Source of the DNA: Acidimicrobiia bacterium
Lineage (GTDB): Bacteria > Actinomycetota > Acidimicrobiia > Acidimicrobiales > Poriferisodalaceae
Direction of reading: 5' to 3'
NCBI GenBank assembly: GCA_022824805.1
Contig: JAJDZE010000200.1
Span: forward strand, 1-64,000
Length of the DNA stretch: 64,000 nucleotides
Below are positions 33,570-38,966 of this stretch, one piece after another. Position 1 is the stretch's first letter; each line of letters starts with the position of its first letter. The position numbers were made by a program, and so were the translations under genes. The notes beneath the pieces were generated by a model. It worked only from the letters and a program-made list of their open reading frames with translations. It was not told where the DNA came from and ran no database searches.

Positions 33570-36482
33570 ATGGCGATGACCGAGGAGCAGCGGGTGCGAG
33601 GCGATGAACCCAGGCGCCGGCCTGCTGGCGCGCCGCTGCGCCTGCAACGGCATTTCACGGCTGCCGGCACCCATCCCTATGACACCGTGCGGTGGGAGCG
33701 CTTCGATGCGTCCATCACGAACGCAGTCGACGGGACAGTTGCGTTCGCGCAGTCCGACGTCGAATTCCCCGCCGACTGGAGCCCCACGGCGGTCAACATC
33801 GTTGCCCAGAAGTACTTCCGCGGCACCCTCGGCACGCCCGAGCGGGAGCAGTCGCTGCGCCAGGTCATCGACCGCGTTGCGGGCACCATCACCCGGTGGG
33901 CGGCCGGCGACGGCTATTTCGCATCGCCGGACGAGGAGGCGACATTCGAGGCCGAACTGGCGTGGCTGCTGGTTCACCAGCGGGTGGCGTTCAACAGCCC
34001 GGTCTGGTTCAACATCGGCGTGAAGGGTGTGCCCCAGCAGGCGTCGGCGTGCTTCATCCTCGCTGTCGACGACGAGATGGAATCGATCCTCGACTGGTAC
34101 GTCACCGAGGGCCGGATCTTCAAGGGCGGCTCGGGCGCCGGAGTGAACCTGTCGGCGCTGCGGGCGTCGTGCGAGCTGCTGTCGGGCGGCGGCACGGCGA
34201 GCGGCCCGGTCAGCTTCATGCGCGGCGCCGACGCGTCGGCGGGCACGATCCGCAGCGGCGGCAAGACCCGGCGCGCCGCCAAGATGGTGCTGCTCGACGC
34301 CGATCATCCCGATGTCGAGGCCTTCGTGTGGTGCAAGGCACGCGAAGAGCGCAAGGCACGCGCCTTGGCCGCCGCCGGTTTCGACATGGATGTCGACGGC
34401 GCCGACTCGTTCTCGGTGCAGTACCAGAATGCGAACAACTCTGTCCGGCTGTCCGACGAGTTCATGGAGGCAGTCGCGGCCGACGGCACGTGGGTGCTGC
34501 GGGCTCGCACGACCGGCGAGGTCACTGCCGTCATGCGTGCGAGAGACCTGCTCGGCCAGATCGCTCAGGCGGCCTGGGAATGCGCCGACCCTGGCGTGCA
34601 GTTCTCCACCACGATCAACAGCTGGCATACGGCGCCGGCCCACGGCGCGATCAGCGCCAGCAACCCATGCAGCGAGTACGTCCACCTCGACAACTCGGCC
34701 TGCAACCTGGCGAGCGTGAACCTGCTGCCTTTTCTGGAGGCTGAGCCGGCAGGCGAAGCCGCGGCCCGAGCGGCCGGTGAGCGCAGCGAACAAGAACGCG
34801 AAGCAATGGGAGGCGTCACTCGTCGCGACTTCGACATCGAGGGCTTCCGTCAGGCGGTGCGCATCACGTTCATCGCCCAGGACGTGCTGGTGAGCCACGC
34901 CGACTACCCGACGGAGCTGATCGGCGAGACCTCCCGGCGCTTCCGTCAGCTCGGGCTGGGCTTCACGAATCTGGGGGCGCTGCTGATGGCAGCGGGCGTT
35001 CCCTACGACGCTCCGCAGGCGAGAGCGCTCGCGGCATCGCTCACGGCGCTCATGTGCGGGGAGGCGTACGCCACCTCAGCCGACTTGGCCGAGCGGCTCG
35101 GGGCCTTCGACGGCTTCGGCGCGAATGCCGACGCGATGCGCGGCGTTCTGGGCCGCCATTGCGACTCGCTCGACAGCATCGAGGTGTGCCCAGACCCGCC
35201 AGGCGCCGGTGCGGGAATGGCGGCGCTCACCGACGATCTGCGTGCCGCCGCGCGTGATCGCTGGCGCCATGCCGTCTCGGGCTGCGAGTCGCGTGGGGTT
35301 CGCAACTCTCAGGCCACGGTGATCGCCCCCACCGGGACGATCTCGTTCATGATGGACTGCGACACCACCGGGATCGAACCCGATCTGGGCTTGGTGAAGC
35401 ACAAGAAGCTGGTGGGCGGCGGCGATCTGCGCATCGTGAACTCGACGGTGCCTGTCGCCCTCAACCGGCTCGGCTACTCGCTCTCGCAGATCGCCGACAT
35501 CGAGGCACACATCCTCGCGACGGGCCACATCGCCGGCGCGCCGCACCTGGCGGATGCTCACCTGGCGGTGTTCGCCTGCTCGATCGGCAGCGATGCCATC
35601 TCGCCGCAGGGCCACGTGGCCATGATGGCTGCCTGCCAGCCCTTCGTCTCGGGTGCAATCTCCAAGACCGTCAACCTGCCCGAGTCGGCATCCGTGGGCG
35701 ACATTGCCGACCTCATCGTCGAATCGTGGCGGCTGGGGCTCAAGGCGGTGGCGATCTATCGCGACAACTGCAAGGTGAGCCAGCCCTTGTCGGTCGGGCC
35801 GGCGTCCCCCTCCGCAGCGACATCGCCCGCGGGTGCATCGGCCCAGGGGGCCGCGGCATCCGCTGCCGCCGCGCTGGCGGGAGCGGTGGTGCCGCCGCGC
35901 AACCGGCTGCCGCGCAGCCGCCGATCGCGCACGTTCTCCTTCCGGGTCACCGACTGCCACGGCTACATGACCGTCGGCGAGTACGACGACGGCCGGCCCG
36001 GCGAGATCTTCCTCACTGTGGCGAAGCAGGGTTCCACGCTGGCCGGGATCATGGACGCATTCGCCATCTCGGTCAGCCACGGCTTGCAGTACGGGGTGCC
36101 GCTGCGCTCCTACGTGGAAGCCTTCACCAACATGCGGTTCGAGCCTGCGGGGCTCACCGACGACCCCGAGCTGCGGATCGCCACCAGCATCGTCGACTAC
36201 ATCTTCCGCCGCCTGGCGCTCGAGTACCTGTCGTTCGAAGAGCGCTCCGAGCTGGGCGTGCTGAGCGTCAACGAACGCACCGATCCGCCGCTGCCCGGGC
36301 TCGAGAGCGCAACGGTCGAGAGCGCGATCGGCGCCGAGCCTGCGCCAGACCCGCCGTCGCACCGCACTGCGGTCTACGGGTACGCCGATGCGCCGCTGTG
36401 CATGACCTGCGGCGACCGGATGGTGCGCGCCGGCTCGTGCTTCGCCTGCCGCTCCTGCGGCGCAACCAGCGGCTGCGGCTGA
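33570..36482 (+). CDS. nrdJ: Vitamin B12-dependent (class II) ribonucleotide reductase
   Basis: 970 aa. It reduces ribonucleotides to deoxyribonucleotides with adenosylcobalamin as radical source. Seen: the finger-loop motif NPCSEYVHLDNSACNLASVN, IAPTGTISFMMDCDTTGIEPD, and a cysteine-rich C-terminus (LCMTCGDRM, then CFACRSCG) for re-reduction of the active site. AGGAGG lies 9 nt before ATG 33570. Residues about 389-414 (after SVNLLPFL) are encoded by a dispersed repeat inserted in frame. An Ala-rich linker (SAATSPAGASAQGAAASAAA) precedes the C-terminal domain. No B12 riboswitch was seen; two DnaA-box-like sites lie upstream. Confidence 0.95.
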   Translation: MAMTEEQRVRGDEPRRRPAGAPLRLQRHFTAAGTHPYDTVRWERFDASITNAVDGTVAFAQSDVEFPADWSPTAVNIVAQKYFRGTLGTPEREQSLRQVIDRVAGTITRWAAGDGYFASPDEEATFEAELAWLLVHQRVAFNSPVWFNIGVKGVPQQASACFILAVDDEMESILDWYVTEGRIFKGGSGAGVNLSALRASCELLSGGGTASGPVSFMRGADASAGTIRSGGKTRRAAKMVLLDADHPDVEAFVWCKAREERKARALAAAGFDMDVDGADSFSVQYQNANNSVRLSDEFMEAVAADGTWVLRARTTGEVTAVMRARDLLGQIAQAAWECADPGVQFSTTINSWHTAPAHGAISASNPCSEYVHLDNSACNLASVNLLPFLEAEPAGEAAARAAGERSEQEREAMGGVTRRDFDIEGFRQAVRITFIAQDVLVSHADYPTELIGETSRRFRQLGLGFTNLGALLMAAGVPYDAPQARALAASLTALMCGEAYATSADLAERLGAFDGFGANADAMRGVLGRHCDSLDSIEVCPDPPGAGAGMAALTDDLRAAARDRWRHAVSGCESRGVRNSQATVIAPTGTISFMMDCDTTGIEPDLGLVKHKKLVGGGDLRIVNSTVPVALNRLGYSLSQIADIEAHILATGHIAGAPHLADAHLAVFACSIGSDAISPQGHVAMMAACQPFVSGAISKTVNLPESASVGDIADLIVESWRLGLKAVAIYRDNCKVSQPLSVGPASPSAATSPAGASAQGAAASAAAALAGAVVPPRNRLPRSRRSRTFSFRVTDCHGYMTVGEYDDGRPGEIFLTVAKQGSTLAGIMDAFAISVSHGLQYGVPLRSYVEAFTNMRFEPAGLTDDPELRIATSIVDYIFRRLALEYLSFEERSELGVLSVNERTDPPLPGLESATVESAIGAEPAPDPPSHRTAVYGYADAPLCMTCGDRMVRAGSCFACRSCGATSGCG
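34736..34810 (+). repeat. Dispersed repeat, copy B, in frame inside nrdJ
   Basis: This copy matches 17062-17149 at the lepA start (41 of 47 nt, then 19 of 22 nt at the far end), with a 14-nt shorter middle. In nrdJ it is read as EAEPAGEAAARAAGERSEQE and a few residues more, a low-complexity stretch where relatives normally go directly from SVNLLxF to the next helix. The reading frame is kept. Confidence 0.7.
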
Positions 36483-36498
36483 GAGGCTGAGTCGGCCC

Positions 36499-38823
36499 TC
36501 AGGCGCCTCGCCCGAGCGGGCAGCATCCCGGAGCGCAGCTGTCCGGATGCGGCCCGAGACGTCCGACCGCGGGCCGCTCGGCTCGCAGTCCTGCTGACTC
36601 TCCAACGAGATCCACCAGCGCCTCGACGAACAACCGATGCGTGCCGACCGACGGGGCTCGCACCATGGTGATGCCGGCGCGGGCGGCAGTGGCGCGTGCT
36701 GTGGTGTCGAGGTCGACCAGCACTTCCATGTGGTCGGAGACGAAGCCGAGCGGCACGACGAGGGCGGCACGGCAGCCCTCCTTGCCGAGTTGGGCGAGCC
36801 GGTCGTTGATGTCGGGTTCCAGCCACGGCACGTGCGGCGGCCCGCTGCGCGACTGGTAGACCACCTCGATCTCGCCGGTCAGTCCTGCCATGCCGGCAAC
36901 GGTCTCGGCGGCATCGCGAAGCTGTGCCTCGTAGTCGCACGATGCGGCCATCGGGCTCGGCAGGCTGTGCGCGGTGAACAGGGTGCGCACATCGCTGCGC
37001 AGGCGAGCGCCGTGGAGTGCCTCGCGGATGCATTCGGCCATGGCGCCGGCGAAGCCCGGGTGATTGCCATAGACGCGCACGCGTGACATACGCGGCGCAC
37101 CCCGCACCCCCTCGGCAGCTCGTGCAAGGTCTTCGTGGTACTGGCGACAGCCCGAATACGAGCTGAACGCGGAGGTCACGATCACCGCAGCGTGGCGGCG
37201 GCCTTCATCGGCCATCTGGCTGACGGTGTCACCCAGGTAGGGATGCCAGTTGCGATTGCCCCAGTAGCACGGCAATGGCGTGCCACGGCGAGCCAGCTCG
37301 CCCGAGAGGGCCGCCAGCAATGAGCGATTCTGCTCATTGATCGGGCTCACGCCGCCATGACGCAGGTACTGCTGGGAAACTCGAGCCAGTCGCTCGGCCG
37401 GCACATCGCGTCCCCGGGTGACGTTCTGCAAGAACGGCATCACGTCGTCAGGACCTTCGGGCCCCCCGAACGACAGCAGCAGCACCGAGTCGATCGACGC
37501 GGGCCCGAGTGCGGCTTGGGCCGGTGCAGCCCGGAAGGACTGCACCGTCACCGGCCGGCGGTGTTCGACCGCAGCGATTGAGGTCGTCTCGCCGGTGTCG
37601 GCGCCGGCGCCGACGGTGGCGAGGGGTACGGCGCGGGCTCGACCGGAGGCGACCAGCAGCGGTACAGACGTGAGCGCGACGATCATCGCCGCCACGATGG
37701 CCACGCGGTAGCCGGCGCCGTCGATCAGCAGCCCGGCCAGCGGCGGCCCGGCCAGCCCGCCGATGCCTGCAGCGGTGTACAGCGCGCCCAGAATGCCGCC
37801 GAGGCCGGCAAGCCCGAAGAGCTCGGCGGCAACCGCGGGGGACAGGGCGATGAACCCGCCGTAGCTGCAGCCCATCACCAGCGCGTAGATCACGAGGACC
37901 GTGTAGTTGTCGCCGGCGCAGAGCCAGATCAGGTAGCTCAGCCCCATGATCGTGAAGGCGAGCTGGTACAGGCGCATCAGCGGCAGCACGGTGCCGAGTG
38001 CCCCGAGCACCAGCCGTCCGAGCAGCGATGCAAGGCCGATGATGCTGATCAGCCACTGACCGCCCGGCTTGCCGAGGTCGTCGAGGTAGTCCTTGATGTA
38101 GATGATCGGGACGAACAGGCTGGCGCTCAGCAGCATCATCGAGAAATAGAGCAGCGTGAACCGCCGGTTGTGCATGAGCCCGCGCAGCGACGGCATCTCG
38201 CTCGGCGGCGCCACATGGGGCGGCCGCCGAGCGGCGACCGCGGCCAGCAGGAGCAGTCCCGTCGACACGACGGCCAGCACCCGGTAGGTGTCCCGCCAGC
38301 CGTAGAGCTCGATGAGCCATTCCGCTCCCCAGGCGCCGGCGAATTGACCCAGTCCGATCCCGGCCACAGCGACGCCCAGCGCTGCGGTGCGGTGGCGCTC
38401 GAACCAGCCGCCGACCACCGAGACCATCGGGACGTACGCACATGCCACGCTGATCCCCACGCCGAGCACGTAGGACGTCATCGCCACCCACAGGCTCTGA
38501 GCCAGGCTGGTCGCCCACAGGCCGAGCCCGAGGGCGACGGCGCCGGCGACGAGCACACGTCGGGGTCCGTAGCGGTCGCCGAGGCGGCCGGTGAACACGC
38601 CGATGACGAAGTAGAGGAATGTCGGAATCGCGAACAGCAGCGAGGCGAGGCCGGTGCCGATGCCGAACTCGCCGCGGATGGAGTCGAGCACGACCCCGAA
38701 GCTGTAGGCCACGCCGAACACGGCGAAGGTGGCGAGCGAGGCCGACAGCGCGACCGTCCAGCCGGCAGCCGAGTCCAGCTGGGAGCTTCGGGCGGTGACG
38801 CCCTCGTCGGCGGTTGTGCTCAA
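36499..38823 (-). CDS. Fusion of MFS transporter and coproporphyrin/protoporphyrin ferrochelatase
   Basis: 774 aa, one uninterrupted frame. Residues about 20-395 form a twelve-helix MFS transporter of the monocarboxylate/oxalate-formate type, with motif A as GRLGDRYGPRRV. A linker of about 50 residues follows. Residues about 445-774 are a complete actinobacterial ferrochelatase: LLLSFGGPEGPDDVMPFL, GGVSPINEQNR, YWGNRNWHPYL, catalytic His in FTAHSLP (H619) and Glu in SDHMEVL (E700). C558, C763, C767 and C768 fit the [2Fe-2S] ligands of actinobacterial enzymes. It would insert iron into a porphyrin at the membrane. The linker contains GTG codons but no ribosome site, so a separate ferrochelatase start is not supported. 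Confidence 0.9.
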   Translation of the reverse strand: MSTTADEGVTARSSQLDSAAGWTVALSASLATFAVFGVAYSFGVVLDSIRGEFGIGTGLASLLFAIPTFLYFVIGVFTGRLGDRYGPRRVLVAGAVALGLGLWATSLAQSLWVAMTSYVLGVGISVACAYVPMVSVVGGWFERHRTAALGVAVAGIGLGQFAGAWGAEWLIELYGWRDTYRVLAVVSTGLLLLAAVAARRPPHVAPPSEMPSLRGLMHNRRFTLLYFSMMLLSASLFVPIIYIKDYLDDLGKPGGQWLISIIGLASLLGRLVLGALGTVLPLMRLYQLAFTIMGLSYLIWLCAGDNYTVLVIYALVMGCSYGGFIALSPAVAAELFGLAGLGGILGALYTAAGIGGLAGPPLAGLLIDGAGYRVAIVAAMIVALTSVPLLVASGRARAVPLATVGAGADTGETTSIAAVEHRRPVTVQSFRAAPAQAALGPASIDSVLLLSFGGPEGPDDVMPFLQNVTRGRDVPAERLARVSQQYLRHGGVSPINEQNRSLLAALSGELARRGTPLPCYWGNRNWHPYLGDTVSQMADEGRRHAAVIVTSAFSSYSGCRQYHEDLARAAEGVRGAPRMSRVRVYGNHPGFAGAMAECIREALHGARLRSDVRTLFTAHSLPSPMAASCDYEAQLRDAAETVAGMAGLTGEIEVVYQSRSGPPHVPWLEPDINDRLAQLGKEGCRAALVVPLGFVSDHMEVLVDLDTTARATAARAGITMVRAPSVGTHRLFVEALVDLVGESAGLRAERPAVGRLGPHPDSCAPGCCPLGRGA

Positions 38824-38966
38824 GGTCGTACGCCCGGTGCCGTGCAGTCAGCGCCACCGCTGTCAACTCACCAGCGGCGCGAACGGGCACATTACTGCCG
38901 TACCGTTGGCGGAGACTGAGACCAGACACCGCCGTCGCACAGAGCACGACCATCGGGAGCAGCGCA

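Follow-up and report, generated by a model that had tools for sequence, protein, structure and literature searches.

The iron source of bacterial ferrochelatases and the place in the cell where these enzymes work are not settled. The actinobacterial coproporphyrin-type enzyme CpfC is regarded as soluble and has been described as a monomer that is most likely cytosolic; there is uncertainty about its iron donor (PMC10427985). In the stretch of 64,000 nucleotides analysed here (the window), from the genome of an uncultured member of the Acidimicrobiia, CpfC is encoded in one frame with a membrane carrier that precedes it, and this fusion raises two questions: how did the ferrochelatase become the tail of a transporter, and what might the cell gain from it? 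The answer that we favor, with a probability of about two in three, is that the gene encodes one membrane protein in which an MCT/OFA-type carrier runs through a linker into the only ferrochelatase of the cell, that this protein arose once, by a deletion, and that its meaning lies in a membrane tether and in shared expression.

The gene is a single open frame of 774 codons (Table 1), and the TTG at its beginning is the only start codon upstream of the first transmembrane helix. In Pfam searches, the protein matched MFS_1 at residues 29-240 (133.7 bits in two stretches; cut-off 33.4) and Ferrochelatase (PF00762) at residues 446-742 (267.7 bits; curated cut-off 27), the latter match covering positions 3-315 of the 317 of the profile. 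An AlphaFold2 model built from 28 aligned sequences (mean pLDDT 83.7) has 12 membrane-length helices between residues 19 and 395, disorder at residues 403-441 (pLDDT below 50) and a confident ferrochelatase (CpfC) fold in the C-terminal half. Since the pTM of the model is 0.57, it does not fix the placement of the two domains relative to each other.

Table 1. Features of the fused gene and its upstream region (positions in the window; residues of the 774-aa protein)
Feature	Position	Strand	Remarks
Fused gene, MFS carrier and coproporphyrin-type ferrochelatase, 774 aa	36499..38823	-	TTG start at 38823, stop at 36499-36501
MFS domain, MCT/OFA type, residues 16-395	37639..38778	-	12 helices; TM8 motif with Ser266 and Arg270
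Linker, residues 396-443	37495..37638	-	Ala/Pro-rich, of differing length within the genus, modelled as disordered
Conserved segment preceding the ferrochelatase, residues 424-443	37495..37554	-	PVTVQSFRAAPAQAALGPAS; substitution pattern of purifying selection
Ferrochelatase domain, residues 444-745	36589..37494	-	Phe452, Cys559, His619, Glu700
C-terminal tail, residues 746-774	36502..36588	-	Cys763, Cys767, Cys768, candidate [2Fe-2S] ligands with Cys559
Conserved upstream element, candidate promoter of the fused gene	38885..38904	-	GGTACGGCAGTAATGTGCCC; TAATGT box at 38889-38894

A frame of this kind may be suspected of being an artefact of assembly or binning, or of owing its length to a recently lost stop codon, all the more as the named source records are Acidimicrobiia and Microthrixaceae MAGs. 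However, all 11 genomes analysed from the genus have this frame open; they were assembled separately and show the same junction, although identity to the window protein goes down to 59% in the MFS half (59-95%; ferrochelatase half 79-92%), and the synteny is intact on both sides of the fused gene. The 11 assemblies exclude a sequencing error that removed a stop codon, and an artefact of any of these kinds has a negligible probability. Moreover, every ferrochelatase match in the 11 genomes sits in a fused frame, and our check for a stand-alone hemH in these genomes found none. The Nei-Gojobori estimates indicate purifying selection on both halves, with omega at 0.06-0.32 in the MFS part, which evolves faster, and at 0.10-0.18 in the ferrochelatase part; one near-identical pair, which has too few changes to tell, is the exception. 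The initial annotation, which had described a single 774-aa polypeptide of two domains, neither of them degraded, is supported: there is one open frame, read from the minus strand in the window, and omega values lie far under 1 on either side of the linker. The fused MFS halves form one clade (support 0.987), as do the fused ferrochelatase halves (support 1.0), and this fits a single fusion event. One genome, G005, contains a second MFS-ferrochelatase copy that is cut by a contig end (L117, G005:C67:61017-62667) and is either a real duplicate or the sign of a mixed bin. The locus of G007 (L119) looks recombinant, with a ferrochelatase half near that of the window (third-position difference 0.08-0.28), an MFS half near that of G003 and the switch near residue 420, within the linker.

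The ferrochelatase half scores 139.8 with TIGR00109 (cut-off 124.6) and 401.1 with NF000689, slightly under the cut-off of 408. The catalytic residues His619 (AHSLP) and Glu700 (HMEV), the proximal Phe452 as well as Cys559 and Cys763/767/768 are kept in every fused sequence that covers these positions, which bears out the earlier assignment to the actinobacterial ferrochelatases with catalytic and Fe-S cysteine residues. The full domain, the catalytic His and Glu, the proximal Phe and the four candidate cluster cysteines are those of the actinobacterial CpfC/HemH proteins (PF00762), and the proximal Phe is an actinobacterial marker of CpfC (PMC10427985). Foldseek searches paired the C-terminal part with CpfC from Bacillus and Listeria (target-based TM-score 0.86-0.89); the best solved relative by sequence is 28wn. 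With this set of residues, the half is presumably an active actinobacterial CpfC. The genome of the window also encodes ChdC (PF06778, 151.6 bits, G000:C209), which follows CpfC in the coproporphyrin route, and this route is therefore the likely heme pathway; searches with the CgoX profile gave only partial, sub-threshold matches on contig pieces. The chdC gene (L191, G000:C209:1161-2738) lies directly behind a gene that reads as fdhD-like, and we recognised no other heme genes on that contig.

The MFS half contains the MFS loop motif GRLGDRYGPRRV, which we identified by reading. It scores 139.3 with the profile of the SfMCT L-lactate transporter (NF049980, cut-off 320) and 84.8 with the OFA profile (TIGR00890, cut-off 374.85); by these scores it is a relative of SfMCT and OFA that is not filed as a member of either family. 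Foldseek matched the N-terminal part to MCT8, MCT1, MCT2, SfMCT and OxlT (TM-score 0.82-0.89). Thus, the MCT/OFA carriers, among them SfMCT, OxlT and human MCT1/2/8, are relatives by sequence and fold, but identity is only about 20-25% and an enzyme at the C-terminus is present only here. The TM8 residue Arg270 aligns across the fused and sister sequences and also with SfMCT and MCT8; in MCT-type carriers, the TM8 arginine binds carboxylate. MFS proteins are carriers, so that the membrane "channel" of the initial annotation has to be replaced by a carrier. The termini of MFS proteins lie in the cytoplasm, and the ferrochelatase half should therefore sit there as well, in agreement with the arginine-rich central loop and C-terminal end.

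How the two genes came together is suggested by the sister genera. Written with hemH on the plus strand, the gene order in g2, g4, g6 and g7 is DUF3039(-), MFS(+), cupin(-), a small gene for about 105 aa(-), hemH(+) and nrdJ(-), where the synteny marker at the left is presumably a DUF3039 gene. The genus g5 has this order without the cupin gene, and in the deeper genera g3, g8 and g9 the small gene(-) lies beside hemH(+) with no MFS gene near. The genus of the window has only DUF3039(-), MFS-hemH(+) and nrdJ(-): the small gene is missing there, and neither it nor the cupin gene had a match in the genome of the window in searches run without a positive control. The small acidic protein whose gene adjoins hemH in the sister and the deeper genera (L123-L131, L141-L147) had no Pfam match. 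As the fused genus keeps only the outer genes and the fusion, the block between MFS and hemH most probably disappeared on the branch leading to this genus. Long frames had at first suggested a three-part fusion in the sister genera; this was rejected as the genes are separate. On the other side of the locus, nrdJ (B12-dependent ribonucleotide reductase, plus strand in the window) is convergent with the fused gene, and only 16 bp separate the two stop codons (36482-36499); the corresponding gap between hemH and nrdJ is about 650-700 bp in most sister genera.

The block seems to have contained the hemH promoter. In all 12 sister loci, a TANNNT box (TAGCCT, TAGTCT or TAACCT) begins 12 or 13 nt upstream of the hemH ATG; for comparison, 0.4% of all ATGs of these loci have TANNNT at -12. 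Its position is the one expected for the -10 box of a putative leaderless transcript. In M. tuberculosis, TANNNT has been mapped experimentally as the -10 motif of promoters, many of them leaderless (PMC3898074), and it would act in the same way here. In a gap-free alignment anchored on the ferrochelatase core, the box was absent from 12 of 12 fused loci (GCCCAA, ACCCAG or GCTTCG, for example, stand at its positions), and the old ATG was replaced by CTC, CTT, CTG, TTG or AGC in ten. The place of box and ATG is taken by the 3' part of the conserved segment, with Leu439 in the window. Upstream of the window's fused start, TAATGT within GGTACGGCAGTAATGTGCCC is the only TANNNT box in 230 nt, and all 12 fused loci have an equivalent element with small changes and such a box. 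Since the hemH box and mostly also its ATG are gone and the candidate promoter box lies upstream of the MFS part, the ferrochelatase appears to depend on read-through from there; most likely, its expression has followed that of the MFS transporter since the deletion in the genus ancestor. We propose that this ancestor lost, in one event, what lay between MFS and hemH, two neighbours of the same orientation, and that the deletion took one or two opposite-strand genes, the leaderless hemH promoter and the MFS stop codon. From then on, the cell would have had ferrochelatase solely as an extension of the transporter: the tether would keep the insertion of iron into coproporphyrin III at the inner membrane face, and the amount of ferrochelatase would be tied to the expression of the transporter. 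With the intermediates in the sister genera, the locus is a clear case of a fusion by loss of intervening opposite-strand genes and a leaderless promoter.

Is the fusion also the final product? The linkers of the fused loci span 54-113 codons, and 12 of 12 are in frame and without a stop; by base composition alone, and with relatedness ignored, twelve stop-free linkers would be expected with a probability of about 1.5e-6. Two ways to a free ferrochelatase have to be weighed. (i) A start within the linker, the GTG of a VTV motif, could also or exclusively yield free ferrochelatase. This GTG occurs in 12 of 12 loci, and two genomes have kept an ATG at the old start. Shine-Dalgarno strength was dropped as a test of internal initiation: hemH of the sister genera looks leaderless and has no Shine-Dalgarno sequence either, so its absence is no argument. 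However, GTG often encodes Val in these GC-rich genes anyway, the ferrochelatase-proximal linker has no TANNNT box in any fused locus, the old ATG is gone in most of them, and the preservation of the linker frame despite varying lengths needs translation through the linker. An independent start, which would contradict a single polypeptide, is thus made unlikely by the loss of the hemH promoter and ATG, and we give this possibility little weight. (ii) The whole fusion might be translated and a protease then cut the disordered linker to release the ferrochelatase. The long disordered Ala/Pro-rich linker and the conserved segment that adjoins the ferrochelatase would suit such a precursor, but we recognised no cleavage motif in the linker, and we regard processing as even a little less probable than an internal start. 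From these sequence data, we infer one stable polypeptide in the cell. Within the linker, residues 424-443 stand apart: they are conserved across the genus (omega 0.09-0.56, compared to about 0.2-1.3 for the variable linker) yet mostly disordered in the model, and they are absent from the unfused ferrochelatases that we aligned. A docking or regulatory role of this segment is possible.

A different meaning of the fusion, in line with the transport of porphyrin, heme or an iron chelate that the initial annotation considered, would be that the carrier imports or exports what the ferrochelatase needs or makes, such as an iron-carboxylate chelate, coproporphyrin III or coproheme, and that the two halves hand their substrate over directly. 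The TM8 arginine and the MCT8-like fold would fit an anionic, possibly bulky substrate, but the characterised MCT/OFA relatives carry carboxylates (lactate, oxalate, aromatic acids) or thyroid hormone, and we know of no heme link among these substrates. Moreover, one or two opposite-strand genes lie between MFS and hemH in the sister genera, so that there is no prior operon that would argue for a functional link, and hemH has its own promoter box there. Two known systems speak for such a coupling. First, in mitochondria, ferrochelatase is found in a complex with ABCB10 and with mitoferrin, an iron carrier (PMC9133952). There, too, a ferrochelatase is held to a membrane transporter, but the contact is non-covalent, the carrier family is unrelated to our MFS half, and iron as the substrate is supported. 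Second, the MFS transporter LplT works as a complex with Aas, the enzyme that uses its substrate, and both are apparently encoded by one ORF in some bacteria (PMC11416262); as here, an MFS transporter is then extended by an enzyme acting at the cytoplasmic membrane surface, but the families are different and that enzyme acts on the transported substrate. By analogy, the fused protein might be a single-chain bacterial counterpart of mitoferrin-ferrochelatase in which the carrier supplies iron as a carboxylate chelate or porphyrin, or removes coproheme. We consider such a transporter-ferrochelatase machine, and direct hand-over in general, rather unlikely, and rank above it the membrane tether with shared expression as the most likely meaning. 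That a whole genus has no ferrochelatase other than the one attached to a membrane carrier indicates that membrane placement is at least tolerated. Should the substrate of the carrier be related to iron or porphyrin, the protein would offer a single-chain system for testing direct substrate hand-over.

Fusions of ferrochelatase as such are not without precedent: in Cutibacterium acnes, CpfC is joined to ChdC, presumably by a flexible linker (PMC10427985). The fusion partner is the enzyme of the following pathway step in that case and a membrane carrier in ours; we found no description of a ferrochelatase-transporter fusion in the open-access literature. Our PF00762 scans covered about 300 genomes of the class and 400 of the phylum, and a scan of genome contigs kept the 80 nearest ferrochelatase relatives; no other MFS fusion occurred among the roughly 290 distinct ferrochelatases of the matches listed for class and phylum or among these 80 relatives, and fusions of independent origin may exist in other phyla. 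About 40 ferrochelatase frames of more than 560 aa from the three scans were considered as candidates. They have no MFS match and at most one hydrophobic N-terminal segment, and the ten that were scanned with Pfam contained only ferrochelatase (one with a weak CbiX overlap in addition); these long frames are thus GC-rich open extensions rather than fusions.
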